A DNA stretch of 64,000 nucleotides from Prochlorococcus marinus CUG1433 (lineage in GTDB: Bacteria > Cyanobacteriota > Cyanobacteriia > PCC-6307 > Cyanobiaceae): positions 1,364,001 to 1,428,000 of the forward strand of contig JAEPLN010000001.1 in assembly GCA_017644425.1 (NCBI GenBank), given 5' to 3'. Both the position numbers and the translations under genes were made by a program. The notes below the pieces were generated by a model. The model was not told the DNA's origin. It saw only the letters and a program-made list of their open reading frames with translations, and ran no database searches. This document shows, piece by piece, positions 6,624-25,387 of the stretch; the first letter of the stretch is position 1; every line of letters starts with the position of its first letter.

Positions 6624-7976
6624 ATGAAACAGTTAAATCCAGATATTTTTTTATGGGCATCTCCACTATTCTGTAAAGATCCAGAGAAATCTTCATATGA
6701 GTATTCTTTGTTAAACCCTTTAATTCAAAAAAGAAAAATAATTTATTCTTTTATTTTTTTTACTAGGTCTTTTTATAGTGGTTTAAAAAAAATAAGTAAA
6801 AGAAAAATTTTTAAATGTAATTTTTTTAATAGTGGTCCTAGAAAAAATATTGTTTATTTGCCGGGGTCTTTTATTAATAATAAAGAAAAAAATTGTCCAT
6901 ATTTTCCTTCAGCGACAAATGAAACTTCATTTCTCATAATAGATAATGAAAGTAAATTATCAAGAAATTTCTTAAAAATATGCTTTAAATTATTTTTATT
7001 TATATTACCTGAATTCATTAGGTTTAATAAAAAAAATAATATTTTAGATAGATTCGTAAATTGGATTTTGCTTCTTTCCTATTTTGTTTCTTTAGATGCT
7101 TTGACTCATTATTACTTTGCTCTTTATATTTATGACTTGTCAATTTCTTATCCAAAGGCTAATCATATTTGCTTGCATGAGATGCATTCATATTCAAGGA
7201 TAGTTTATGGTGTCACAAGTATTACAAGATCAAATTCTACAACCCTACAGCATGCTTTTATACATCCAACCAGACTTATGTTTGATTTGAGGAATATAAA
7301 GATTAAACCTTATCTTCCTGTAACCATATTTGTTTGGTCAGAAGAGTCAAGAAATGTTCTTTTTAAGTTTGGATGGCCGGCAGCAAAAATTAAATTTTGT
7401 GCGACAGAAAGGTTTTTAAGATATAAAGAACTTTCTATGAATTCAGATTTAAAAGAAAGTTCTTTATTCTTAAACTATTTAAAGAACCCCGAAAAAGAAG
7501 AAATTTTCCTTTTCATCCCATCTTTATTAAAAGATGATTTTAAATTGTGTATTATTTCTGCCCTAATATTGAGATCTATCTATAAAGATATAAAAATAAT
7601 GATTAAGATACATCCATCCTATAAATTATCTTTCATAGAAAGTCTAATAACTTTATATTTGTCTTTAAAATCAATAAAATATACAAAATCTAATCTTAAT
7701 GATCTGTTTAAAAAAAGACCTTTGACATTTACGTATTCTTCAACAGCAATTTTTGAAGCGGCATTAAACAAATGCCCTTCGTATTTCATCCCAACTAGTT
7801 TAAAATATAATGGTAATGAGTTAGTCTTAAGAAACATTCTTTTAAAAATTGCTGATCAATATAAAAAAGGGAAAATACTTGAACAAAGCTCAAATCCTTT
7901 GTATATTTCAGCAGAACGATCAAATTCTTTCTTTGGTCTAGATAGGAACAATTTTTTTACTATTATTGATCGATAA
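6624..7976 (+). CDS. Putative GT-B-like surface carbohydrate transferase
   Basis: 450 aa with no close family that I can name. Its C-terminal half looks like the nucleotide-binding half of polysialyltransferase/CDP-glycerol-transferase-like GT-B proteins: KIHPSYK with H330, and TYSSTAIFEA at about 370-379, where a Ser/Thr-rich loop precedes a Glu-Ala as in those families. A hydrophobic stretch at about 120-165 may associate with the membrane. The product is Lys/Asn/Ile-rich, matching the extreme AT content. Its stop codon overlaps the ATG of the radical SAM gene (ATAATGA). A glycosyl- or glycerophosphotransferase role is inferred from fold hints and neighbours only. Confidence 0.5.
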   Translation: MKQLNPDIFLWASPLFCKDPEKSSYEYSLLNPLIQKRKIIYSFIFFTRSFYSGLKKISKRKIFKCNFFNSGPRKNIVYLPGSFINNKEKNCPYFPSATNETSFLIIDNESKLSRNFLKICFKLFLFILPEFIRFNKKNNILDRFVNWILLLSYFVSLDALTHYYFALYIYDLSISYPKANHICLHEMHSYSRIVYGVTSITRSNSTTLQHAFIHPTRLMFDLRNIKIKPYLPVTIFVWSEESRNVLFKFGWPAAKIKFCATERFLRYKELSMNSDLKESSLFLNYLKNPEKEEIFLFIPSLLKDDFKLCIISALILRSIYKDIKIMIKIHPSYKLSFIESLITLYLSLKSIKYTKSNLNDLFKKRPLTFTYSSTAIFEAALNKCPSYFIPTSLKYNGNELVLRNILLKIADQYKKGKILEQSSNPLYISAERSNSFFGLDRNNFFTIIDR

Positions 7977-8764
7977 TGAAGAGGATAATAAAAAGAGCAT
8001 TAGCATTACCCTATTCACTTAGAAGGATTAAAAATAGTTTTAACGAAATTGAAGTGGAAACAATTTCATTTTGTAATAGAAAATGCAGCTATTGCCCTAA
8101 TGTTTCTCTTGATAGATTTAATTCTGAGGGATCTGTTTTAATGGATAATAATCTATTAGATGAAATATTTAACCAATTAAAAGATATAAAATTCAATGGA
8201 GTATTTTCTCCACATATGTATGGGGAACCTTTGCTAGATCCAAGAATTGTAAATATTGTTGAAAGAATAAATAATTTAGGAGCAAAATCTAAGATCGTTA
8301 CAAATGGTGATTATTTAACTATTAATCTTTTGGATCAATTATTAGAAGCTGGTTTAAAAATATTATATATATCAAAGCATTCTCCTAAATTAGGTTCTGC
8401 AGCAAGAAAAAGTATTGAATATTTAAAAAGTAAATCTAATTTAAATTTAGAGTTTCAAGTCTTGGATTTTTATACTGACTTTAATACAGATAGAAACATG
8501 GTTGGGAACAGAGGTGGGAATCTAGACATTGAAACAAAAAAAAAGCCACCAATAATGTGCCCCTATGTTCTGTATCCCGTGATTGATGTTAATGGAACAT
8601 TAGTTGTTTGTTGTCAAGATTTTAATAGCGATTATCAGCTCGGTAATATATCAGAAAGACATATCTCTGAGATATGGAATGATCCAATGAATGTTTCAAT
8701 AAGAAGGAATATTTTTTTAGGGAAGTTTGATTTGTCTATATGCAAGCAATGTCTAATGGATTGA
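7976..8764 (+). CDS. Radical SAM protein with SPASM-like C-terminus
   Basis: Contains the canonical [4Fe-4S]/S-adenosylmethionine site CNRKCSYC (C33, C37, C40), followed by the MYGEPLLDP (GEP) motif and KIVTNGD typical of the partial TIM barrel. The C-terminal part has further cysteines (MCPYVLYP, VVCCQD, ICKQC), consistent with an auxiliary SPASM/twitch cluster, and the GNISERHISEIWNDP pattern common in SPASM proteins. Radical SAM enzymes of this type in glycan loci epimerise, dehydrogenate or otherwise modify sugars or peptides; the substrate here is unknown. It lies in the HAD-to-ABC operon, one base overlapping the preceding gene and three bases before a 92-codon ORF. Confidence 0.88.
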   Translation: MKRIIKRALALPYSLRRIKNSFNEIEVETISFCNRKCSYCPNVSLDRFNSEGSVLMDNNLLDEIFNQLKDIKFNGVFSPHMYGEPLLDPRIVNIVERINNLGAKSKIVTNGDYLTINLLDQLLEAGLKILYISKHSPKLGSAARKSIEYLKSKSNLNLEFQVLDFYTDFNTDRNMVGNRGGNLDIETKKKPPIMCPYVLYPVIDVNGTLVVCCQDFNSDYQLGNISERHISEIWNDPMNVSIRRNIFLGKFDLSICKQCLMD

Positions 8765-8767
8765 TTA

Positions 8768-9046
8768 ATGGATTACAATTGTAGAAAATTTCTAATTTTT
8801 ATTAAATTTTATACAAAAATGGGACATTATCTTTTTTTTATAAGAATCCCCTTTTATTTCATTTATATTTCTTCATTCCCTACCATTAGGAAAAAGAGAT
8901 TTAATATATGTAATTATCAAATATATAAATCTTCCATAGATTATTGGCAAAGATCTGTTAAAAAACCAAATATGATTAGCTTCCCTGAATCAAAAGAAAT
9001 TAGGAAAAAACTTTTCAAAGAATTTGTAAAGAAACCTAATGAGTAA
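8768..9046 (+). CDS. Small conserved-looking hypothetical protein (92 aa)
   Basis: Lies between the radical SAM gene and the heparinase-like gene, three bases after one and overlapping the other by eight bases (ATGAGTAA), which argues that it is translated. The product has a hydrophobic N-terminal half (about residues 8-40, one membrane-like segment FLIFIKFYT...FYFIYIS) and a basic, soluble C-terminal half with WQRSVKKP. No motif is recognised. It could be an independent small protein of the module or a detached fragment of a neighbour. Confidence 0.5.
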   Translation: MDYNCRKFLIFIKFYTKMGHYLFFIRIPFYFIYISSFPTIRKKRFNICNYQIYKSSIDYWQRSVKKPNMISFPESKEIRKKLFKEFVKKPNE

Positions 9047-10121
9047 AAATCTTATTTTTAAAAAGATAAATAATTATATTTTTAATATCAAAAAGGATAA
9101 AAAAATAAATAAATTTTTATATTTAATATATTCCTTTACTAGATACTATTTTTTGAGGCTTATAAACTTTTTAAAAGTAAGAATAGATGAAAATATTTTT
9201 TTATACCCTACGCAACTTATATTTCCAAGTATCATTTATCATAAAAAACTAGATAAAGTAAAGCTAAAAACTCCAAATAAAAAAATTATTAAAAATTCTT
9301 TTTCTGGGCGAATCTTAATTGACCATGGAATAGTAAAAGCAGAAATTCAGGATAATTGGCTATTAGATTCTAGTGATGAAGAAATTTCTTATTTACCACG
9401 ACGTTTATTTTGGCTGATATATGAATTAACAAAGCTGAATAACCCAAATATAACTTTATTAGATAATTATCTTAATAAATTTATTTCTTATTTCTATGAC
9501 TCAAATTATATAAAATATTTACCTCCTTATATTCTTTCTGAATGTATTTCAAATATTATTTTATTTAATAGAGCTAAAAATAAATCTTGGATAATTAAAG
9601 ATAATTTTCATAATAATTTTGCAATATTAGCTTGTAAATCACTTGTAAGTAATATTGAATTCAGAGGATCATTTTCAACTTGTAATCATCTTATAAATAA
9701 TTTTCGCGCACTTTATTTATCTTCTAGATTAATTCAACGAAATAAAGATAATTCATTTTTTCTTGTTTTCTGGGAAAAAATAAAAAAGAAAGTTTTTATT
9801 AAAAGTGGAAAAATTGCGGATGGATCAGTTCATTATCATTTTCTAATAACAAGGTGGTTATTTGAAATATGTATTTGTGCTTATGAATTAAATGATTATG
9901 AAATACTAAATAAGGTTAATCCATATTTGAAATCAAATCTTGAAATTGTTGGCTATTTATCTCGAGCTGATGTTTTACCTTTATTTGGAGACCTTTCACC
10001 AGATTGTCCAGTTGAATGGTTATTACCTATTGCAAATTATGTAAAAGAATCATGTCCTTATAGCGCTGTTGGTAACGGCACAAAAGGATGGGACAGAATT
10101 TGGAGCTTTGAAAATTTTTAA
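9039..10121 (+). CDS. Heparinase II/III-like protein, N-terminal part (frame interrupted)
   Basis: This 360-codon reading frame carries the all-alpha toroid half of a heparinase II/III or alginate-lyase-like protein: the GRILIDHGIV..., DNWLLDSS and LSECISNIILF segments and the NHLINNFRALY / DGSVHYHFLITRW motifs are typical of the (alpha/alpha) domain. It ends in a premature TAA at 10119-10121 immediately after a run of five Ts (10115-10119). Removing one T joins SFENF to NSFFDREAGW of the next frame, giving one protein of about 590 residues. In O-antigen-type loci such proteins occur beside asparagine-synthase-like genes and may cleave or transfer uronate-containing glycan; that role is inference. 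Confidence 0.75.
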   Translation: MSKNLIFKKINNYIFNIKKDKKINKFLYLIYSFTRYYFLRLINFLKVRIDENIFLYPTQLIFPSIIYHKKLDKVKLKTPNKKIIKNSFSGRILIDHGIVKAEIQDNWLLDSSDEEISYLPRRLFWLIYELTKLNNPNITLLDNYLNKFISYFYDSNYIKYLPPYILSECISNIILFNRAKNKSWIIKDNFHNNFAILACKSLVSNIEFRGSFSTCNHLINNFRALYLSSRLIQRNKDNSFFLVFWEKIKKKVFIKSGKIADGSVHYHFLITRWLFEICICAYELNDYEILNKVNPYLKSNLEIVGYLSRADVLPLFGDLSPDCPVEWLLPIANYVKESCPYSAVGNGTKGWDRIWSFENF

Positions 10122-10812
10122 TTCTTTTTTCGACAGAGAAGCTGGTTGGTTTTTTTTGGAATATGAACCATGGATAGTTTATTTACGTTTATTTAATCAA
10201 TTAGATTTACCAAGGCCATCTCATTGTCATCAGGATTTCGGATCGCCAATAATTTATCATAAGAAAAAAGAATTAATCATTGATCCAGGTAGATCATCAT
10301 ATTTAATAGATTCTAATAATGAAATAAAAGCTTCAAAACATTCTACTTTTTTAATAAATAAGGAGCCTACTGCTTATTCGGAGAGAGATTTGAAATTCTT
10401 TCCGCTGCCAATAAAACCTTATAAAGTTAAAAAATATCATCTTGGTAGTCAAATATATATTTTAATTCGTTACCCTCTATCATTAAAAGCTAATTTTAAA
10501 ATTAAATATGCTATCAGATTATTTGTAATTAATAAAAAATCTATTGAGATTAGAGATAGGATTTCTTTATTTAAAAAATCTAATATTATCACTCGCTTTA
10601 ATTTTTCATATCCATTAGATAAATTTAATAGATTATTTTCTTATAGTATTGATAACAATAAGACTAAGAATATACTCCTTGAAGAGGAATCAAAAGAACT
10701 TTGTAATTCTAAAAGATTCTTAGATTACAATAGAAAACATAATTATAAATCATTTTCTTTTAGAGCTGAAACAAATAAACATTTTTGCTCTAGATTTTTA
10801 ATCTCTGAATAG
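10069..10812 (+). CDS. Heparinase II/III-like protein, C-terminal part (frame interrupted)
   Basis: Continuation of the interrupted gene in the +1 frame; the homologous part begins at about 10121 and the nominal ATG at 10069 is only an in-frame codon. It has the beta-sandwich half of heparinase II/III proteins: HCHQDFGSPIIYH followed by LIIDPGRSSYL is the family signature (His-x-His...Asp-x-Gly). A typical domain length to the end is preserved and no other damage is visible, so the break is recent, a sequencing error, or tolerated by slippage. The asparagine-synthase-like gene follows after three bases. Confidence 0.75.
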   Translation: MVTAQKDGTEFGALKIFNSFFDREAGWFFLEYEPWIVYLRLFNQLDLPRPSHCHQDFGSPIIYHKKKELIIDPGRSSYLIDSNNEIKASKHSTFLINKEPTAYSERDLKFFPLPIKPYKVKKYHLGSQIYILIRYPLSLKANFKIKYAIRLFVINKKSIEIRDRISLFKKSNIITRFNFSYPLDKFNRLFSYSIDNNKTKNILLEEESKELCNSKRFLDYNRKHNYKSFSFRAETNKHFCSRFLISE

Positions 10813-14394: not shown

Positions 14395-16122
14395 ATGCTT
14401 TTACCCTTAAGAGATATTCTAAAAATTTTAACTTATCTAGATAAAATTTCTAAGTTAAGAATAATCTTAAATCTATTATTATCAGTAATAAATTCTATTC
14501 TAGAGTCTTTAAGTCTATCCTCTTCTTTAATATTTTTCTCTGTTCTTTTTAACGGAAATATCTCTGAGATCGGTTTTATTAAAAACTATTTACCATTCTT
14601 AATTGATATACCTAAGTCTTATTTTTTGATTCTTTTTATTGTTATTTTCTCTATCACAGGGATTATAAGAATATATTACTTAAGAAGCACATTCTTTTTA
14701 TCAAGATATATAGCTAATCAATTATCATCATTGGCTTTTTTAAAAATTCTTAACCAAGAATATGAATACCATTTAGAAAAAAATACATCTCTACAAGTTT
14801 CTACGCTAACAAATGATATAGGTGAATCTGATAATTCTATCGCTGCGTTATTGCAAATCATAAGTTCCACTTTATCTTTATGTTCAATTATTTTTACTAC
14901 TCTTTTTGTTATTTCTGGCAAATTTATTACTTTTATTCTTTTTATACCTCTAATATATGCATTACTATATCTAAGTTATTCCAGAAAATTTAAAACCAAC
15001 AGTAAATTAATTTCTGATCTCAATGGTAAAATAATAGATTTTACTAAAGATTCTCTTTTCTCTATCAGAAATATTTTACTTTCTCATGATCAACAATATT
15101 ATTTCCAAACATTCAAGAGAATTGATGCTCAGTTAAAAGAAGCACAAGCTAAAAATAATTTCTATTCTGTATATCCAAGAAATGCTATCGAAGTATTTAT
15201 AGTTGGGAGTCTGGCATCATTATTTGTGATTTATCCAAAATTAGCCAGTCCAAACCTAATACCTATTTTTGGATCACTTATAATTGCAGTCCAAAGGATA
15301 TTTCCTCTTTTTCAGCAAATATATTATGGTTTTTCAACTATTAAGTCTCATGAGAGCGGAGTGTTAAAGCTAAAAACATTACTTACTCTTAAGTTAGTTA
15401 ATAATTTTCATTCAAGTAAACTACCTCTAAAACTCAAAACTATTTCATTCTCAAATGTTTCCTATATCTACCCTAATTCATCAAAAATTATTTTAAAAAA
15501 TATTTCTCTTGACATAAAATCTGGAGATAGGATTGGAGTTTATGGCCCAAGTGGTTCAGGTAAATCAACCTTTATAAATATTTTAATGACTTTGCTTTCA
15601 CCAACAAATGGAAAGATAAAAATTAATAACAGGTTATTAGATCCTCAAAGGAAAAGAAATATTTATCCAATCTATCAGGATAATATTTCGCATATTCCTC
15701 AGAGTATTCATTTAATTGATGAAGATATTCTTGCAAATATTGTTGGTCCTATAGATAATGCAAGCATTAATCAAAATAAATTAAACTTAGCCTTAAAAGT
15801 TTCTAATTTAAAGGATTTCGTTGATTCATTGCCAGATAAGATTAATACAAGGGTAGGGGAAAATGGCTCTCTTTTAAGTGGAGGACAGAAACAAAGAATT
15901 GGCATTGCTAGAGAGATTTATAAGATGAAACCTATCTTGGTTTTAGATGAAGCAACAAATGCTCTTGATCCAGTCGTCGAGGAACGCATTATTAAGGAAC
16001 TTTTTAAATTACATCATTTGCAGTTGATAGTGATAGTTAGTCACAAGAAATCCAATTTATCAGATTGTAATAAAATGTTTACCTTTAATAAAGGCCAGAT
16101 TTCTGTAAAAAATCAGTTGTAA
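14395..16122 (+). CDS. ABC transporter, fused permease and ATPase (MsbA/PglK-like lipid-glycan flippase)
   Basis: A half-transporter exporter: about six membrane segments in residues 1-320, then the ATPase with Walker A GPSGSGKST at 384-392, signature LLSGGQKQR at 493-501 and Walker B ILVLDEATN with D518/E519. Dimers of such proteins (PglK, MsbA) flip lipid-linked oligosaccharide or lipids across the inner membrane using ATP. Placed at the end of a glycosyltransferase/deacetylase operon, it probably flips the product of that operon, in parallel with the Wzx-like flippase at 39781. The last 10 bases overlap the convergent SIS gene. Confidence 0.9.
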   Translation: MLLPLRDILKILTYLDKISKLRIILNLLLSVINSILESLSLSSSLIFFSVLFNGNISEIGFIKNYLPFLIDIPKSYFLILFIVIFSITGIIRIYYLRSTFFLSRYIANQLSSLAFLKILNQEYEYHLEKNTSLQVSTLTNDIGESDNSIAALLQIISSTLSLCSIIFTTLFVISGKFITFILFIPLIYALLYLSYSRKFKTNSKLISDLNGKIIDFTKDSLFSIRNILLSHDQQYYFQTFKRIDAQLKEAQAKNNFYSVYPRNAIEVFIVGSLASLFVIYPKLASPNLIPIFGSLIIAVQRIFPLFQQIYYGFSTIKSHESGVLKLKTLLTLKLVNNFHSSKLPLKLKTISFSNVSYIYPNSSKIILKNISLDIKSGDRIGVYGPSGSGKSTFINILMTLLSPTNGKIKINNRLLDPQRKRNIYPIYQDNISHIPQSIHLIDEDILANIVGPIDNASINQNKLNLALKVSNLKDFVDSLPDKINTRVGENGSLLSGGQKQRIGIAREIYKMKPILVLDEATNALDPVVEERIIKELFKLHHLQLIVIVSHKKSNLSDCNKMFTFNKGQISVKNQL

Positions 16123-16706
16123 CCAATGTTATAGTCAATTCTTCTATTTGAAGTTGCTTCTTCATCTTGTATATTAGGGCAATTAAATCCAGCTCCATGA
16201 ATAAGCTGATAGAAAAACATTAACGTAAGAACTTCACCTGTATGGTACTCATTAACATCAAGAATAATAGTGTTGCTCCTAATTTTTTCAGAAGGGCTTT
16301 TGCCTGTTATTAGAGCAGTTTTGATATTTTGATCTTTAGCAAAATCTAGTGCTTTTTTAATATTTTTAGATACACCTGAACTGCTAATGCCTATGATTAA
16401 AGTCTCTGAAAATAATTCTTCCTTTATCCCTCTCATTGAGATGGCAACCCAATTTTTAACCCATTCATCATGAGAAGTCTCATGAATTAGAGAACTAGCA
16501 AGAATTCCACTGCCTGGTGCAAAAGCTGACTTATTTGTTAATCTTGCAACATCAATTGCTGCATGATCTGCAACTGCTAGATTTCCTCCATTCCCAACAA
16601 TCATAATCCTTTGAGAATTAATAAAGTCTTCTTGCAATGTTTGCCATTCTTTTGTTTTGAGGGTATTTATAAATTTCTCCTCAAATCCTTTAATCTCAAG
16701 ATGCAT
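16113..16706 (-). CDS. SIS-domain phosphosugar isomerase (GmhA-like)
   Basis: 197-residue single SIS domain with the phosphosugar-binding loops IVGNGGNLAVADHAA (about residues 36-50) and GISSSGVSKNI (about 105-115). Size and the ASSLIHETSHDEWVKNW stretch resemble sedoheptulose-7-phosphate isomerase GmhA, not the CBS-containing arabinose-phosphate isomerases. No hldE, gmhB or hldD is present in this window, so an ADP-heptose role is unsupported locally; it could feed another phosphosugar, possibly the aldolase/KdsB route. Converges with the ABC gene with a 10-base overlap and is 25 bases downstream of the fusion gene on the same strand. Confidence 0.82.
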   Translation of the reverse strand: MHLEIKGFEEKFINTLKTKEWQTLQEDFINSQRIMIVGNGGNLAVADHAAIDVARLTNKSAFAPGSGILASSLIHETSHDEWVKNWVAISMRGIKEELFSETLIIGISSSGVSKNIKKALDFAKDQNIKTALITGKSPSEKIRSNTIILDVNEYHTGEVLTLMFFYQLIHGAGFNCPNIQDEEATSNRRIDYNIGYN

Positions 16707-16731: not shown

Positions 16732-18843
16732 TTATGTTATTGTAATAGATAGATTTGCATCCTCATGTAATGTTGGATTCAAACCTAGTTTAAATAAAGA
16801 TACACCAGGATTATTGATTTGATCTATTCCCCCTAAGTCAAAAAACAAGCAACCTTTTTTTTTGGCAAATATTATGCTCTCCCAAAGAAGTACATTAGAG
16901 ATATTCTTTACCCTTTTTTCACTATCATTAACAGCTAAAAGGTAGGTAGCAGTATTTTCATATAAACAAACAATAATTGAACCAAGAAGAATTTCGCTAT
17001 TCGAATTTTGGTTATATGCCTGAAATGCAATGAATTCAACATCATCATAGCTTGAATTAAAAAACCATTTTCTTAATAATGATGAATTTATCCCATCATA
17101 ATTTTTTTTCTTTTTATCCTCTTCGTATAAATCGAAAATTTTAAAAATATCCTCTTTGTTTTTGAAGCTTTTAATATTTAAATCTAATTTGAGTCCTTTT
17201 TTTAATGCATTTCTCCATCTTCCTTTCATTTTTGTTTTTATTACATCTTCATGATTTTTAAGATTTATTATGCCTGTTTGATATCCACGTATTTTGAATA
17301 ACTTTCTTAAATAATGTTTAAGTTTATTGTCAAGGCTGTTTTTTTCAATGGTTAATAAGATAAGCAATCCTTTTTTAAATTCATGCTTTAAAAAAATAAT
17401 TAACTTACTATAAATGATCTCAATTTCATAATCTTTTAGGGAATGATAATCTTTTTCAATCTTCATTCTATTTATAATGTAGAAATTAAAGTTATACTTT
17501 TTTTTGTAGCAAATACCAAATTTACCAATAATCTTCCCTCCTAATTTAATTTTATAAAAATAACATTTTTCGGAATATGACTTTAAATAAGATTCAGATT
17601 GAAGGTACGATGAGTAATCAATTTGATATTTTAATGATCTATATTCATATTCATTTATCCTAATAAAATTAATTTCATAATTTATATTATTAATAATTCG
17701 TTTCTTTATTATTCCGCACTTATCCTCATCTATTGAAGAATTACATATTATATACATTTTTTGATTCCATAAACTTAAAGTATTTATGAGTAAATTTTTA
17801 TTGATTTTTATTTTATTGTTTAATTGAGGCCATCTTAATAGAGGAAGACCAAATTGATTTAATTTCTCTAAAATATGAATATATTCTTCTTTTAAATTTA
17901 TCTCTATTCCATACTCTTTTAAAATTAAATCATTATTAGAGATTCCTGCCCATATTAGTAAATTTGAGACAATCTTTCTCGCTTTTTTGTTCTCTTTGTA
18001 TGTTTTTGAATAAAAACAAATTGGAGATTTAATTATAAGCTCGGAAAGCATACTTATTTTGTGATTACGAAGCTTACTTGTAACTTTTTTATTAGTTGAG
18101 TTTTTAAATGGATCTTGTATTAATCTCTCAATTCGACTTAAATATGGGGAATTATTTATTATTATTTTTTTTAAGATAAAAAATATATCTTGAAATAAAG
18201 TTTTAAAAGTGAAATATATGTTTTTCAAAAAATATACATAACTATTTATCTCATGACCTAAAACTAGATTTTTACTATATATCAAACATCCACCCTCTCT
18301 AATTGGAAAGTGCTTATATAAACTCATAATAATAAATTCATTTTCACTTTTTATATTTGAATTAGGTATTGATAAATGAGCATTATCATAAATAATTATT
18401 CCTTTATATATTTCTTTTAGATTATTTTTAAAAGTGTCATTATCAGACTCCCCAAAGTAATTACAAATTAAAATTGCATCAATTTGATTTTTATTAGAAG
18501 AATTTATAATGGAAGAAATCGGATCAGAAATATCATAAAATTTTATATGACATAATTCTTTAATAGAGTCTATTACTTCATTGCAATAATAAGCAGGTAT
18601 TCCTAATGTTGGCAGATCTTTTTTTCTCTTAGAAATTAAATTAATAATTATCTTTAAACTTGCCGTAGCAGATATAGTCCAAACAATATTTTGATCTTTA
18701 TAAAAAGTATCTATATATTTATAAATAGAGCAATCATTTTTACTATTAATAGTATTTAATGATGATCCGAGAATTCTAAAAGGAGGCGCACTTGAAATGC
18801 CAATCCCTTTTATGTATTTCTTTTTATTTCTATTAATAAGCAC
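16732..18843 (-). CDS. Aminotransferase-like (PLP fold) fused to a FemAB/GNAT-like aminoacyltransferase domain
   Basis: 703 aa, much longer than either family alone. Residues 1-~370 look like a DegT/type I PLP enzyme: VWTISATASLKIIIN resembles the substrate/PLP-phosphate loop, YDNAHLS has the pyridine-binding D153, and SLYKHFPIREGG has the likely Schiff-base K177. Residues ~385-703 look like a FemAB/FemX peptidyltransferase half: KMKGRWRNALKKGLKL, then a YLLAVNDSEKR segment, FDLGGID and SLFKLGLNP, all hallmark positions of that fold. FemAB proteins use aminoacyl-tRNA to acylate an amino group. A bifunctional enzyme that installs an amine on a sugar and then acylates it is a reasonable inference. 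Start is GTG; the composition is extremely Lys/Asn/Ile-rich. Confidence 0.7.
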   Translation of the reverse strand: MLINRNKKKYIKGIGISSAPPFRILGSSLNTINSKNDCSIYKYIDTFYKDQNIVWTISATASLKIIINLISKRKKDLPTLGIPAYYCNEVIDSIKELCHIKFYDISDPISSIINSSNKNQIDAILICNYFGESDNDTFKNNLKEIYKGIIIYDNAHLSIPNSNIKSENEFIIMSLYKHFPIREGGCLIYSKNLVLGHEINSYVYFLKNIYFTFKTLFQDIFFILKKIIINNSPYLSRIERLIQDPFKNSTNKKVTSKLRNHKISMLSELIIKSPICFYSKTYKENKKARKIVSNLLIWAGISNNDLILKEYGIEINLKEEYIHILEKLNQFGLPLLRWPQLNNKIKINKNLLINTLSLWNQKMYIICNSSIDEDKCGIIKKRIINNINYEINFIRINEYEYRSLKYQIDYSSYLQSESYLKSYSEKCYFYKIKLGGKIIGKFGICYKKKYNFNFYIINRMKIEKDYHSLKDYEIEIIYSKLIIFLKHEFKKGLLILLTIEKNSLDNKLKHYLRKLFKIRGYQTGIINLKNHEDVIKTKMKGRWRNALKKGLKLDLNIKSFKNKEDIFKIFDLYEEDKKKKNYDGINSSLLRKWFFNSSYDDVEFIAFQAYNQNSNSEILLGSIIVCLYENTATYLLAVNDSEKRVKNISNVLLWESIIFAKKKGCLFFDLGGIDQINNPGVSLFKLGLNPTLHEDANLSITIT

Positions 18844-19089: not shown

Positions 19090-20571
19090 TCAAGAAATCT
19101 TTGAAAAGAGATATTTTGATAATCTTAGACTCATTGCAATTATTGTAAAAGTGGGATTATAAATACTTGAATTAGGGAATATTGAACTTCCTGCTATATA
19201 AAGATTCTTTAAATTGTAAAATTTAAGATTTTGATTTACAACCCCAATATTTTCATTTCCAATAATGGTCCCTCCATGATGATGATTTCCAGTTTCAAAA
19301 TTTAAAACTTCTAAATTTATTCTCTTTGCTTTAAATTCAGGAAATATTTTTTTTAAATTTGATTGATTCTCTGAAATTATATCTTTTAAAAAATTTAAAT
19401 TTTTTCTACTCAAACAGCTTTTTATTTCTAAAGAATTATATTTTTTATTAATTATGACTCTGTTTTTAGGACTTGGTAAATGTTCAAATGAAATAGCAAT
19501 ATCAATTTCTTTTGGGTCATTTTTATAGCATTTAAACTTATATATTAAATATTTAAAAATATCAAAAGAAATAATAAATTTGAGAAGAGTACTGAGAAAT
19601 GCATAAAAATTTTTTTCCAAAAATCTTCTTTTTATAATTTGGATTTTTTTCAGAATAGTTTTTGAAATAATATTTTTTTGTACTCTTGGTGATATGGATA
19701 TTCCATAATTTATTTTATTTTGGCTATCTTTATTATTATTTTTTAAAATAAATGCTTGGTTTAATTCTTTTAATTCTTTTTTACTAAAGTTATTATATTT
19801 ACCTATTGCAACCTTGCCAATATTTATATAGGGGTGGAATGTAATATATCGCCCAGCTGATTTACAGTTAAGATTATTTTTATAAATTAGATTTAATAAT
19901 ATTTTATTATTTTCGAAGCAACCAGTAGATAAAACAATTTCTTTAGCGAAAAATGATTTTTCCAAACCTTTATTATCTATAGTAATAATCTTTTCTACTT
20001 TATTTTTTGAATTATTTAAAACAATTTCTTTTAAATTTCTATTAAAAATAATATTTATATTTTTGGAGTCAAATATTTCTCTGCCTTTTTTTATAATAAA
20101 GTTCTCGTAATTTTTTCCAAAAGTAAAATGAGATGAAGCTATTTTTATTGAGTATTTCTTTCTCAAGGCTCTCCATCCTTTATTTTCTATTTTTAGATCT
20201 AAATTTGATAATTGATTACTAATATTTAGATATTTCCATGCTTCTTGATAAGCTTTTTTAAGTTCATTATATTCAATGCCCCATTTAAGAAGCCCTTTAT
20301 ATTCAAAATCAATTAAATCAAATTCCCAAAATGTACCTCCTACCCCTGGAGCTTTCCAGAGAGCAGAGGTACCAAAGAAAGCTTTCTTCCGCTCCTCTCT
20401 AAAATTTATTTTAAAGTCACCTTTGCTTTTGCTCTTTTTATAATCATAATTTAATATTTTATTTTCATTCCCACTTTCTATTATTAAAACTTTTTTATCA
20501 CTGTTTATAAAATACTCAGCTGTCGCAATCCCAGCTGGTCCGGAACCTATTATTATCAGGTCATACTGCAT
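19090..20571 (-). CDS. GMC-family FAD-dependent oxidoreductase
   Basis: FAD-binding N-terminus YDLIIIGSGPAG (GxGxxG at 9-14) and second FAD contact LIIESG at about 28-33. The C-terminal signature NLYIAGSSIFPNSS...NPTFTIIAMS is that of glucose-methanol-choline oxidoreductases, and HHHGGTIIG at about 425 corresponds to the conserved active-site His region. Length 493 aa is in range. Such enzymes oxidise a primary or secondary alcohol on a sugar or lipid-linked sugar. The gene lies 28 bases after the membrane-protein gene and 246 bases before the fusion gene on the same strand. The interval 18844-19089 holds only very AT-rich sequence with no convincing gene. Confidence 0.85.
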   Translation of the reverse strand: MQYDLIIIGSGPAGIATAEYFINSDKKVLIIESGNENKILNYDYKKSKSKGDFKINFREERKKAFFGTSALWKAPGVGGTFWEFDLIDFEYKGLLKWGIEYNELKKAYQEAWKYLNISNQLSNLDLKIENKGWRALRKKYSIKIASSHFTFGKNYENFIIKKGREIFDSKNINIIFNRNLKEIVLNNSKNKVEKIITIDNKGLEKSFFAKEIVLSTGCFENNKILLNLIYKNNLNCKSAGRYITFHPYINIGKVAIGKYNNFSKKELKELNQAFILKNNNKDSQNKINYGISISPRVQKNIISKTILKKIQIIKRRFLEKNFYAFLSTLLKFIISFDIFKYLIYKFKCYKNDPKEIDIAISFEHLPSPKNRVIINKKYNSLEIKSCLSRKNLNFLKDIISENQSNLKKIFPEFKAKRINLEVLNFETGNHHHGGTIIGNENIGVVNQNLKFYNLKNLYIAGSSIFPNSSIYNPTFTIIAMSLRLSKYLFSKIS

Positions 20572-20599: not shown

Positions 20600-21967
20600 T
20601 TATATAGTATTTATAAGATATGAAACACGAATCGAATTAATTAAAATTCCAATAATTAAAGGTATATTTATTAAAATTTCTATTGGTTTGGGCAACTTAA
20701 TTTTTTTCTCAATATATATTATTAGATATAGAATATTTATTGTAAAAATAAATGCAAATATAAAGGAATAGCCTTGTAGATGTACAGCAAAAGATTGCTG
20801 AAATAATAGACCATAAAAGAGAATAGACCAAGATAGAGGCATAAATATCCATTTAGCTTTTTTACTATTTTTTATAAAAACTATTAATCCAAAAATTGAC
20901 AATAAAGATAAAGAAAATAAACTAGCAATTGCAGATGAACAATTAAAATAGCTTATATATTTTTCCAGGGTTGATAAATTATCTAATTGACTGTTAGTAA
21001 AGCAAACACTGAATCTACTTCCCCCTAAGAATTGAAGAGCAGCAATTATACCTCCATGATGAATATTATTAAAGCTGTCAATACCAATGCGATAGAGTGC
21101 TTTACTTCCTGAATGATTTATATTCATAATTCTCAAAAAGAGAAGCTGAATACCATGGATAACTATTGGCATACCACAAGCTAATGAATACAAATAAAAA
21201 CCTTTTTTATTTTGAAGAGTATTTGGTAAATAACGATATGAATAATCCTTTTCTAATAAATTACCTAAAAAGAAACTTATTATTTTATTGAAAATTACAA
21301 ATATAAATAAAAAGAATATCCATATCCAATGCATCAATCCAGCTAAAAAAACAAATAATAATCCAAGATATTTTTTATTAAGGATAAAAAAATATATACT
21401 TAGCAAATAAAATGTCAGAAATGATACCTCGAACCAAGGAGCAATCATCATCCTATATGCCCATGGAGAAGTTAAAAATAAAGAGAATAAAATAGTGCCA
21501 TAAAATAGTGATTGAAACTTATTTCGTATTTCCATGACATATAAGCCTATTTCTGAAACTAAGAAACCCACAATCGAAATTAAAATGTAATCAAAAAAAC
21601 TGCCTAAATTAAGTAATTGATAATTTGGTATTAATTTATTTAAAAAAGCTTGGGGAAGATAACCTATCAAAGGCACTAAATATATTTCACCTATATTATT
21701 CTCCAGATAATTGGTAACTTCTTGGACACTATTCCATGAAGTGTATCCAATATAGTTAATTAAGGAATTTTCGGAAATATTTTCAATAGCATTTACTATT
21801 CTTTCAAAATGATATGGTCTCCATTTTATACCTAAAGGAGAGTATGTTTGCATGAAATAATAATAAAAAATTGTTATGAGAATATATAAAAATATCCTAA
21901 AAAGAATAGGTGAAAAAAATATTTGATATTCTCTTATATTTTTATTTTTTATATCTTTGCAAAGCAT
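20600..21967 (-). CDS. Multi-pass membrane protein, possible GT-C-like transferase or polymerase
   Basis: 455 aa with roughly ten to twelve hydrophobic segments spread from residue 20 to the C-terminus and a long, less hydrophobic loop at about 270-330 containing NHSGSKALYRIG and HHGGIIAALQFLGG. I cannot name the family. The layout (N-terminal helix, then an extracytoplasmic loop with acidic/aromatic residues, then many helices) fits GT-C glycosyltransferases or O-antigen ligase/polymerase-like proteins. It begins a minus-strand operon with the GMC oxidoreductase and the aminotransferase-FemAB fusion. Function not assigned. Confidence 0.6.
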   Translation of the reverse strand: MLCKDIKNKNIREYQIFFSPILFRIFLYILITIFYYYFMQTYSPLGIKWRPYHFERIVNAIENISENSLINYIGYTSWNSVQEVTNYLENNIGEIYLVPLIGYLPQAFLNKLIPNYQLLNLGSFFDYILISIVGFLVSEIGLYVMEIRNKFQSLFYGTILFSLFLTSPWAYRMMIAPWFEVSFLTFYLLSIYFFILNKKYLGLLFVFLAGLMHWIWIFFLFIFVIFNKIISFFLGNLLEKDYSYRYLPNTLQNKKGFYLYSLACGMPIVIHGIQLLFLRIMNINHSGSKALYRIGIDSFNNIHHGGIIAALQFLGGSRFSVCFTNSQLDNLSTLEKYISYFNCSSAIASLFSLSLLSIFGLIVFIKNSKKAKWIFMPLSWSILFYGLLFQQSFAVHLQGYSFIFAFIFTINILYLIIYIEKKIKLPKPIEILINIPLIIGILINSIRVSYLINTI

Positions 21968-22272: not shown

Positions 22273-23403
22273 ATGATTCCATTTAATAAAATATATCTTA
22301 CCGGAAAAGAGAAGTTATATATTGAAAAAGCTCTAAATACTCAAACTGCTGGGGATGGGAACTACACCAATAAATGTAGTAAATGGTTAGAAACTTTAAC
22401 TGGAGCGCATAAAGTGTTATTAACAACTTCATGTACTGCAGCACTGGAAATGGCCGCAATATTAATTAATATTAAACCCGGCGATGAAGTTATCATGCCC
22501 TCTTACACTTTTGTTTCAACCGCAAATGCTTTTGTTCTAAGAGGAGCAATTCCAGTTTTTATTGATGTTTATGAAAACGATTTAAACATAAATGTTGAAA
22601 ATATTGAGAAAGCAATAACAAAAAAAACGAGGGCTATAGTTCCAGTTCATTATGCAGGAAACAGTTGTAAAATGGAAAAAATCAAAGAAATCGCAAATAA
22701 ATATAGTTTATTCATCATAGAAGATGCCGCACAATGCATAATGAGTTTTCATAATGGAAAACATTTAGGAAGTACTGGAGATTTAAGTGCATTTAGCTTT
22801 CATCAGACTAAAAATATTTCTTGCGGAGAAGGAGGAGCTTTAGTTATTAATAATCCAAACCTGTTTGATAGGGCAGAAATAATTAGAGAAAAAGGTACTA
22901 ATAGAAGTCAATACTTAAAAAAACAAAGCAATTTATATACTTGGTTGGATATTGGTTCATCTTATCTTCCAAGTGATATTAATGCAGCATATTTATGGGC
23001 TCAGCTGGAGGGATCAAAATTTATAACTTCAAAACGTTTAAAAGTATGGAAAAATTATAAAGAGAGTTTTTCTTATATCGAAAAAGAAGGTTTAATTAAG
23101 GTGCAAACCGTTAGCAGTAATCAAGGTTACAATGCTCATTTATTTTATATATTATTAAAAGACGAAATCTTAAGGAATAAATTTATAAAAGATATGTACA
23201 AAAAAAATATAATATGCACGTCACACTATATTCCTCTTCATAGCTCTCCCTTTGGAAAGAAAGTGGGCAAAACACAAGATGATTTAAAAGTTACAGATTC
23301 TATAAGTAAAAGAATAGTAAGATTACCTATGTGGGTTGATTTAGATAAATTTCAAAACAAGATAATTGATAGCTCTATTAAAATTATTCAAAAACTGGTA
23401 TAA
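22273..23403 (+). CDS. wecE: dTDP-4-amino-4,6-dideoxygalactose transaminase (WecE/RffA-like)
   Basis: PLP-dependent sugar aminotransferase that converts dTDP-4-keto-6-deoxyglucose to dTDP-Fuc4N (TDP-thomosamine). DegT-fold landmarks: TTSCTAALE (51-59), D151 in IIEDAAQ, and the Schiff-base K180 in FSFHQTKN. The segments EKGTNRSQYL, LYTWLDIGSSYLPSD and AAYLWAQLE are nearly diagnostic for WecE. Length 376 aa is standard. Its substrate would be supplied by the rmlA-rmlB pair encoded convergently just downstream (28 bases between stops), so the three genes form a complete route to dTDP-4-amino-sugar. Confidence 0.92.
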   Translation: MIPFNKIYLTGKEKLYIEKALNTQTAGDGNYTNKCSKWLETLTGAHKVLLTTSCTAALEMAAILINIKPGDEVIMPSYTFVSTANAFVLRGAIPVFIDVYENDLNINVENIEKAITKKTRAIVPVHYAGNSCKMEKIKEIANKYSLFIIEDAAQCIMSFHNGKHLGSTGDLSAFSFHQTKNISCGEGGALVINNPNLFDRAEIIREKGTNRSQYLKKQSNLYTWLDIGSSYLPSDINAAYLWAQLEGSKFITSKRLKVWKNYKESFSYIEKEGLIKVQTVSSNQGYNAHLFYILLKDEILRNKFIKDMYKKNIICTSHYIPLHSSPFGKKVGKTQDDLKVTDSISKRIVRLPMWVDLDKFQNKIIDSSIKIIQKLV

Positions 23404-23431: not shown

Positions 23432-24487
23432 CTAAAAGAAATTTTTTAATCCTAACCTTTCGCAATTATAATCACTTTTAAATAATTGTTTTTCAACCCA
23501 TTTTTGATTATTTAGATACCAATCTACAGTAATTTTTAAAGCGGATTCAAAAGAATATTTTGGTTCCCAATTAATTTCTTTTTTGATCTTTTTAGTATCC
23601 AGTGCATAACGTTTATCATGGCCTGGACGATCTGTAACATAATATATAAGGTTCTTTGAAGATGATTTTTTGTTTAGTTTTTTATCTAAAATTTCACATA
23701 GTAGCTTAACAATCGCATTATTTGATATTAAATTATTTGCCCCTATACAATAGGATTCGCCAAATTTACCTAACTCAATAATCTTTAAGATTGCTTCTAC
23801 GTGATCATGAACATAAATCCAATCTCTAATAAATTCTCCATCACCATAAATAGGGATTTTAAAATTATTTATAACTTTGAATATTACAAGTGGGATTAAT
23901 TTTTCTGGAAATTGTCCAGGACCAAAATTGTTCGAACAATTACCTATTATTACGGGTAATTTATAAGTATGAAACCAACTCTTTACAAGAAAATCAGTAG
24001 AAGCCTTTGAAGCTGAATATGGTGATCTAGGATTAATTTTTGATTGTTCATTAAAATAACTATTTTCCTTTGCCGAACCATATATCTCATCAGTACCCGC
24101 ATGATAAAAAATAAATTTATTTTGTCGATCTTTATCCATTTTAAAATAAAGTTTTCTAGCTGATTCAAGTAAATTTAAAGTCGCTGAAATATTATTTTCC
24201 ACAAAAAGGCCTGGATCATCAATTGAACGATCAACATGAGTATCAGCTGCCAAATTAATAATTAAATCTGGATTAATTTGAAATATTATTTCTTGTATTT
24301 TACTACTATCAGAAAGATTATAATTTATAAATTTATATCTATCTTTTAGATTATTATCAATTATAATTTCAGCACTTGCATAACCATTTTTATCAATATT
24401 AACTATTTTATAGTCTGTATGAATTAGTAATTTTTCTATCAGATTCCTACCAATAAATCCAGAACCTCCTGCAATTAAGACTTTCAT
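23432..24487 (-). CDS. rmlB: dTDP-glucose 4,6-dehydratase
   Basis: Extended SDR that makes dTDP-4-keto-6-deoxy-D-glucose. NAD-binding GGSGFIG at 7-13, the dehydratase acid/base pair D133-E134 in GTDEIYG, and Y157/K161 in YSASK are all present, as is NCSNNFGPGQFPEKLIP, a signature of RmlB. 351 aa. It is 12 bases downstream of rmlA in the same operon. No rmlC or rmlD follows, so the keto sugar is likely routed to the WecE-like aminotransferase instead of dTDP-rhamnose. Confidence 0.96.
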   Translation of the reverse strand: MKVLIAGGSGFIGRNLIEKLLIHTDYKIVNIDKNGYASAEIIIDNNLKDRYKFINYNLSDSSKIQEIIFQINPDLIINLAADTHVDRSIDDPGLFVENNISATLNLLESARKLYFKMDKDRQNKFIFYHAGTDEIYGSAKENSYFNEQSKINPRSPYSASKASTDFLVKSWFHTYKLPVIIGNCSNNFGPGQFPEKLIPLVIFKVINNFKIPIYGDGEFIRDWIYVHDHVEAILKIIELGKFGESYCIGANNLISNNAIVKLLCEILDKKLNKKSSSKNLIYYVTDRPGHDKRYALDTKKIKKEINWEPKYSFESALKITVDWYLNNQKWVEKQLFKSDYNCERLGLKNFF

Positions 24488-24499
24488 ATTAAAACATTA

Positions 24500-25387
24500 T
24501 TAATTAAAATCCTTTTTCATATCAAGCAATCTCAACAAGTACTTTCCATAACTACTTTTTATTAAATATTGAGCTAAAGAATATAATTGTTTATCATCTA
24601 TCCAACCATTTCTCCAAGCTATTTCCTCAGGACAGCCAACTTTTAAACCTTGACGATTTTCCAAAGTTCTAACATAACTACCTGCATCATGAAGAGACTC
24701 AAAAGAGCCTGTATCTAGCCATGCCAAACCTCTACTAAATATTTTTGCCCTTAACTTATTTTCTTTTAGATAAAGTTTGTTCAAATCGGTAATTTCTAGT
24801 TCTCCTCTTATTGAGGGACGAACTTTTTTTGCCTTTTCAACTACTGTTTGGTCATAAAAATATAATCCTGTTATTGCGTATTGACTTTTAAAAGATATTG
24901 GTTTTTCTTCAATTGATTTAATTTCATAATTTTCATTAAATTCAACAATACCATAATTATGGGGATCACTAACAGGATATACCGTTATTGTTGCTCCGAT
25001 ATTTTCCTCCATAGATTTTTTAATTTGCCTTATAAAATTCTGCCCATGAAAAAAATTATCTCCCAAAATTACAACTGATGAATAACCTTTAATATATTCC
25101 TCGCCAATAATGAATGATTGAACAATTCCTGCAGGTTTTTCTTGAATAAGATAATTGATATTTATCCCAAGGGATTTACCATTTCCTAGAAGATCTTCAA
25201 ATAGATTATGATCTCTTTGTGAACATAATATAAGAATATCTTTTATTCCAGCCAACATAAGTATTGATAAGGAATAATATATCATTGGCTTATCATAAAT
25301 AGGTAATATTTGCTTACTAATCGAATTTGTCAATGGAGATAATCTTGTACCTTTTCCTCCAGCCAAAATTATCCCTTTATATTTCAT
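24500..25387 (-). CDS. rmlA: Glucose-1-phosphate thymidylyltransferase
   Basis: Forms dTDP-glucose from glucose-1-phosphate and dTTP. N-terminal ILAGGKGTRLSPLT is the nucleotidyltransferase signature, with the family-typical LPIYDKPMIYYSLS, VILGDNFFHGQ and LAWLDTGSFESL following. 295 aa matches RmlA (about 290). First gene of the rmlA-rmlB operon; the 507-base region to its right (25388-25894) must carry its promoter. Confidence 0.97.
   Translation of the reverse strand: MKYKGIILAGGKGTRLSPLTNSISKQILPIYDKPMIYYSLSILMLAGIKDILILCSQRDHNLFEDLLGNGKSLGININYLIQEKPAGIVQSFIIGEEYIKGYSSVVILGDNFFHGQNFIRQIKKSMEENIGATITVYPVSDPHNYGIVEFNENYEIKSIEEKPISFKSQYAITGLYFYDQTVVEKAKKVRPSIRGELEITDLNKLYLKENKLRAKIFSRGLAWLDTGSFESLHDAGSYVRTLENRQGLKVGCPEEIAWRNGWIDDKQLYSLAQYLIKSSYGKYLLRLLDMKKDFN

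Follow-up and report, generated by a model that had tools for sequence, protein, structure and literature searches.

Does one reading frame of Prochlorococcus marinus CUG1433 encode both an enzyme that installs an amine on a sugar and an enzyme that attaches an amino acid to it? A sequence-only reading of the 64,000-nucleotide stretch analyzed here (the window), taken from a genome of 1.70 Mb in 4 contigs, had proposed that an aminotransferase of the PLP type and an aminoacyltransferase of the FemAB type share a single chain of 703 residues. We asked whether the frame is real, whether its two halves are what they were said to be, and what the protein might do.

A 703-codon frame conserved as a fusion

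The frame was present exactly at the interval given in Table 1, starting with GTG and lying on the minus strand, which the sequence-only reading had not named; read on the plus strand, the same interval contains 67 stops. D153, K177, WRNALKKGL, FDLGGID, and SLFKLGL were all found where that reading had placed them. A search with the 703-aa protein matched 6 of the 266 genomes of the genus, and the proposed look for the same architecture elsewhere yielded one further full-length fusion among the 265 other genomes. This protein, of 698 aa (genome G204), is 50% identical to that of the window (genome G000) over the full length and has ATG at the place aligned with the GTG start. The existence of a second fusion, at 50% identity and in another genome, rules out a chance ORF or an assembly join. 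Both halves of the two fusions are ca. 50% identical, most of the differences falling at third codon positions, and the dN/dS ratio between them is ca. 0.36 for the N-terminal and ca. 0.31 for the C-terminal half, both rough values since dS (1.1 to 1.3) is near saturation. The 703-aa ORF is therefore real, and the domain fusion it encodes, between enzymes of two known kinds, is conserved.

It could be argued that one or both halves have decayed to a noncatalytic state and that the fusion is a neutral by-product of neighboring genes, as the strong divergence of the protein and the failure of either half to pass its Pfam cut-off might suggest. We consider this very improbable: the key residues are kept in all six members of the family described below, the dN/dS ratios are those just given, and the two proteins have diverged to 50% identity while staying fused.

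Table 1. Location of the fused gene, its parts, and its neighbors in the window
Feature	Positions	Strand	Basis
Fused gene, 703 aa	16732..18843	-	ORF; full-length fused relative in G204, 50% identical
Aminotransferase-like half, ca. aa 1-385	17689..18843	-	Alignment with split relatives; boundary approximate
FemX-like half, ca. aa 386-703, two GNAT-like domains in model	16735..17688	-	Alignment, model
D153, aligned with PLP-binding Asp of DegT proteins	18385..18387	-	6/6 cassette members; 24/24 rows
K177, aligned with Schiff-base lysine of DegT proteins	18313..18315	-	6/6 cassette members; 24/24 rows; lysine of 1o61
W338-P339, invariant in six cassette members	17827..17832	-	Alignment
WRNALKKGL (aa 543-551), basic helix opening second GNAT-like domain	17191..17217	-	W543 in 6/6
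DLGGID motif (aa 669-674)	16822..16839	-	Profile alignment, cassette alignment
K685, aligned with Lys305 of Weissella FemX	16789..16791	-	Weak profile alignment; 6/6
SIS-domain (GmhA-like) gene, just downstream	16113..16706	-	Domain search
GMC-type FAD oxidoreductase, upstream	19090..20571	-	Pfam
Hydrophobic protein without Pfam match, membrane protein by eye	20600..21967	-	ORF, Pfam
WecE-type dTDP-sugar aminotransferase	22273..23403	+	543.7 bits vs cut-off 375
dTDP-glucose 4,6-dehydratase (RmlB)	23432..24487	-	385.5 bits vs cut-off 365.1
Glucose-1-phosphate thymidylyltransferase (RmlA)	24500..25387	-	414.7 bits vs cut-off 360.65

Fused and split forms of the pair

In four genomes (G010, G250, G299, and G135) the same two enzymes are encoded by separate genes, directly adjacent and on the same strand, with a gap of 3 bases in G010, 33 in G299, and 34 in G135 and an overlap of 4 bases in G250. 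The G010 pair is 26% identical to the 703-aa protein. The two fused and four split forms are referred to here as cassette members.

A profile of the FemX half matched 11 of the 266 genus genomes, six of which carry the aminotransferase-FemX pair; the scores of 1e-134 and better for these six arise by construction, the profile having been built from them. The remaining five matches were weaker (E 1.8e-12 to 0.0097). Four of them (G240, G033, G184, and G206) are FemX-like genes with no DegT-like ORF in the 12 kb examined, and the fifth (G169) is a weak FemX-like fragment with stops and no aminotransferase neighbor, so the idea that pairing is general among FemX-like proteins of the genus was discarded.

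At the level of the class, FemX-like matches were obtained in 26 of 388 genomes, G000 included, with 25 lying outside the genus. None of 15 class loci from outside the genus showed an aminotransferase ORF to DegT profiles in the 7 to 12 kb examined. The commonest layout among the outside-genus loci was that of L076 (5190-9240), from other cyanobacteria, in which a FemAB-like gene is flanked by DUF350 and a spermine-synthase-like gene, DUF4178 lying farther out; the Pfam run covered L076, and L075, L077, L080, and L082 to L088 have genes of similar sizes. A locus of this type may perhaps serve tRNA-dependent modification of polyamines.

Scanning genome contigs with the G010 and G250 aminotransferases recovered only G010 and G250. 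Nothing useful came from the genome-contig scan with the 703-aa protein, the viral-contig scans, tblastn of phages with the 703-aa protein or the FemX-like protein of L002, or tblastn of plasmids with the latter. Plasmid tblastn with the 703-aa protein matched its C-terminal part only, in 20 records, none covering 80%. Trees of both halves were drawn with chosen rows (13 of the 15 class loci for the FemX half and 12 rows of the DegT set for the aminotransferase half). The six members did not form one clade in either tree, and each tree gave two changes, the least number forced being one; the trees have long branches and uneven composition, and they do not force more than one origin of the pair.

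The N-terminal half resembles DegT aminotransferases

Because the window protein reaches no Pfam or NCBIfam cut-off, the reading of its two halves rests on relatives, profile comparison, and fold searches. PF01041 did not match the 703-aa protein up to an E value of 1. The split aminotransferases of G010 (377 aa) and G250 matched it at 1.2e-20 and 1.8e-24, reaching 74.5 and 87.1 bits against a gathering score of 19.8. The G299 partner stayed below the PF01041 cut-off and had no Pfam match; it was identified by alignment and by its weak similarity to other aminotransferases in a single-sequence search (E 1.6e-8 to 4.6e-4), among them a G188 protein confirmed to be DegT-like. A general DegT profile likewise matched only the G010 and G250 members and missed the fused ones and those of G299 and G135. 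The partners in the last two genomes (L071:10013-11413 and L072:7537-8940) are ca. 466 aa long, exceeding those of G010 and G250 by ca. 90 aa at the C terminus, and no Pfam match was found in L071, the one scanned. When a profile of the two fused proteins alone was compared with ordinary DegT proteins by hhalign, the N-terminal half aligned at E 1e-5 with a probability of 82%.

Six residues of this half (D153, H156, S174, K177, W338, and P339) were invariant in all cassette members; K177, the loss of which had been set as a possible refutation of the fusion, was thus kept throughout. The spacing before the lysine was SxxK in the six members versus Sx4K in all 17 ordinary DegT rows, that is, two residues shorter. 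The start of another short-spacing aminotransferase, with N replacing S before the lysine, was seen in G172 (L119:5796-6311), where it is cut by the contig end. Compared with the DegT sugar aminotransferases WecE (4piw), ArnB (1mdo), WlaRG (5u20), mimivirus L136 (7mfo), and 1o61, the N-terminal half has in common the PLP fold-type-I core and the aligned Asp and lysine; it differs in its identity of only ca. 20%, in the shortened spacing, in giving no PF01041 match as part of the 703-aa protein, and in its fusion to an acyltransferase.

AlphaFold models were made of the two halves separately, because full-length alignments placed the aminotransferase rows in the wrong half. The mean pLDDT was 45.6 for the first half (4 rows) and 47.0 for the second (3 rows), and from these low-confidence models the PLP and GNAT/FemAB folds expected by the sequence-only reading were recovered. 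For the first half, PLP fold type I was seen in the core only (ca. aa 40 to 205), the C-terminal part being hardly modeled, and one WecE row in the alignment may have helped the model. Foldseek returned aminotransferases with sugar ones leading (L136, KabA, WlaRG, WecE, and ArnB), at a best E of 1.4e-7 and a TM of ca. 0.3 over a matched part of ca. 160 to 200 columns of the low-confidence model. The top row of VIA-align was histidinol-phosphate aminotransferase (HisC; Z 15.1, rmsd 3.1, 161 residues), an amino-acid-type enzyme, and a sugar substrate is therefore not favored by that method.

These results bear on whether the substrate is a sugar at all. The N-terminal half could be a PLP enzyme of amino-acid or lipid metabolism, with the FemX half acylating, for example, the amine of a lipid or polyamine, and the first rank of HisC, the SxxK spacing, and the FemAB-like gene beside a spermine-synthase-like gene in one other cyanobacterial locus are in line with this. 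Against it stand the PF01041 matches of the split relatives, the predominance of sugar aminotransferases in the top Foldseek rows, and the setting in a polysaccharide island, and we regard such a non-sugar role as quite unlikely. From alignment and model together, the N-terminal half is predicted to be a very divergent, noncanonical PLP fold-type-I aminotransferase of the DegT-like kind.

The C-terminal half resembles FemX

PF02388 gave no match to the 703-aa protein up to an E value of 1. Its E values for the split FemAB-like proteins were 1.8e-9 (G010, 331 aa), 6e-10 (G250), and 4.2e-13 (G299), and the split relatives reached 37.4, 38.9, and 49.3 bits against a cut-off of 24 bits. The 703-aa protein itself left two traces below cut-off, Acetyltransf_6 (E 0.051) and pepcterm_femAB (E 0.02), scored 13.9 bits with TIGR03019 against a cut-off of 260.35, and had no sequence match in the PDB. 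By hhalign, the C-terminal half of the two fused proteins aligned with FemAB-like proteins from other bacteria, chiefly cyanobacteria, at E 1.4e-13 and 98% probability.

A profile of the C-terminal half matched Staphylococcus FemX at 3.2e-6, the aminoacyl-tRNA-dependent synthases Sbb17 and Sba18 at E 6.4e-4 and 1.2e-3, and Weissella FemX (1ne9) at a whole-sequence E of 0.025, with the lysine of the FK pair falling on residue 305. W543, D669, F684, and K685 were invariant in the six cassette members. In the ligand-residue alignment that had been called for, the Schiff-base lysine was aligned in 24 of 24 rows; the alignment of K685 with the FemX lysine was weak (E 0.025). The helix formed by WRNALKKGL may have a role involving tRNA. 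With FemX of Weissella viridescens and FemA and FemX of Staphylococcus (1ne9, 1lrz, and 6snr), the protein shares the DLGGI...FK block with its lysine at the place of Lys305 and, in the low-confidence model, what looks like a double-GNAT arrangement; it differs from them in very low identity, in the lack of a peptidoglycan-bridge context, and in the aminotransferase on the same chain. The streptothricin-type synthases Sbb17 and Sba18 are FemX-like, and their FDLSGI...FKLGF block matches the profile of the C-terminal half, whereas these two and Orf11 of BD-12 are stand-alone antibiotic enzymes with no aminotransferase on the chain.

In the model of this half, the order of secondary structures fits two GNAT domains (mean pLDDT as above, rmsd ca. 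10 over the length). FemX led the Foldseek list, followed by Sbb17 and FemA (E 2.1e-6 to 7.4e-5, TM ca. 0.3, rmsd ca. 10), with some acetyltransferases interspersed. VIA-align gave a lysylphosphatidylglycerol-synthetase domain (Z 9.6), YycN (9.2), FemX (9.1, rmsd 8.9), Sbb17 (8.7), and FemA (8.2), its top rows including the acetyltransferases YycN, VipF, and tandem GNATs.

Would the acyl donor be an acyl-CoA? Pairs of an aminotransferase and an N-acetyltransferase are known (PglE/PglD and QdtB/QdtC), and were the C-terminal half an acyl-CoA N-acyltransferase, the fusion would make an ordinary N-acetyl (or N-acyl) amino sugar. The sole Pfam trace in the 703-aa protein is indeed the GNAT model Acetyltransf_6, and CoA-dependent tandem GNATs appear alongside FemX in both structural lists. 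However, the acetyl-CoA-loop pattern Q/R-x-x-G-x-G/A was absent, as judged by regular expression only, from all six cassette members and was present at the expected place in two of the four unlinked FemX-like proteins of the genus, and the DLGGID...FK block is as in FemX and Sbb17. An acyl-CoA donor thus seems unlikely to us. The regular expression also matches elsewhere in 5 of 13 class rows and 3 of 4 alphaproteobacterial rows. The two unlinked genus proteins with the CoA-loop-like pattern, unlike the cassette members, read RSTGIG (L113:5549-6514) and QRTGTA (L114:5337-6335). Returning to the FemX-like reading, each half of the fusion probably works like its namesake, DegT or FemABX, and is not formally a member of it, since neither passes its Pfam cut-off.

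Genomic setting

The fused gene lies in a surface-polysaccharide island of Prochlorococcus, within a same-strand run of genes for a hydrophobic protein, a GMC-type oxidoreductase, the fusion, and a SIS protein. RmlA, RmlB, and the WecE-type aminotransferase were called above NCBIfam cut-offs (Table 1), and the island also holds glycosyltransferases, a polysaccharide deacetylase, an ABC transporter, Wzz, and an export protein. The fusion of G204 has other neighbors (an SDR, a cytidylyltransferase, and a DHQ-synthase-like protein), and the sugar is therefore not fixed by context.

Two further features of the window were recorded. A radical SAM/SPASM protein is encoded within the polysaccharide island (7976-8764, plus strand). 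Also on the plus strand, ORFs 9039-10121 and 10069-10812 overlap in different frames, the second matching Hepar_II_III_C at E 4.6e-6; they look like one frame-broken heparinase-like gene or two overlapping genes.

Proposed function and precedents

The evidence supports the claim that one chain bears a PLP-type half, in which K177 and D153 are conserved, and a FemX-type half. We tentatively propose, with confidence close to even but short of it, that the protein is a bifunctional surface-glycan enzyme by which an amine is made on a (nucleotide-)sugar and then N-acylated, plausibly from aminoacyl-tRNA. The N-terminal half would use K177 to transaminate a keto group, most likely that of a nucleotide-sugar; the FemX-like half would then acylate the new amine, most likely with a tRNA-carried amino acid, and K685 would act as Lys305 does in FemX. 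Here we infer the sugar substrate, the order of the steps, the aminoacyl-tRNA donor, the amino acid concerned, and the polysaccharide destination. The linkage of the pair, with two fused and four adjacent same-strand cases among 266 genus genomes, was counted for this mechanism. The poor models, the five of 11 FemX-positive genus genomes that lack an aminotransferase neighbor, and the different sugar genes beside the two fusions were counted against it, and our confidence in it as a whole was lowered because the alignment to Lys305 is weak and VIA-align does not favor sugar aminotransferases.

Precedents exist for separate parts of the scheme. Orf11 of BD-12 is reported to convert streptothrisamine to glycylthricin with Gly-tRNA (PMC12945691), so that the aminoacylation of a small-molecule amine by a FemX relative has a precedent. 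In Rubrivivax, a PEP-CTERM/XrtA FemAB (TIGR03019) gene is described beside a polysaccharide deacetylase gene in an exopolysaccharide cluster (PMC3684757). There too a FemAB-related gene adjoins one expected to bare an amine, although the amine source is a deacetylase and the genes are separate, unlike in the 703-aa fusion. In Aliiroseovarius (L035:5545-7274), there is a four-base overlap between a FemX-like gene and one for a polysaccharide deacetylase. Such deacetylase-FemAB gene pairs are a precedent for a FemAB protein acting next to an enzyme that would expose an amine. The sequence-only reading knew of no described fusion of this kind, and our literature searches bore this out: they showed no paper in which an aminotransferase of the sugar type is joined on one chain to an enzyme of the FemX type. 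Nor did they yield a paper linking Prochlorococcus with FemAB.

Sugars bearing amino acids are known from bacterial polysaccharides, and phages and grazers may select on variable islands of this kind. It is possible, though we lean somewhat against assuming it, that a single polypeptide both aminates a sugar of the surface glycan and caps the amine with an amino acid delivered by charged tRNA, as a variable decoration in a minority of lineages. The fusion links two proteins, both very divergent and hard to annotate, in one testable reaction and supplies candidate genes for N-aminoacyl amino sugars. If the proposal is true, the translation machinery would feed directly into the cell-surface polysaccharide of Prochlorococcus, and the known range of aminoacyl-tRNA-dependent chemistry would come to include surface glycans in a phototroph that is abundant in the sea.
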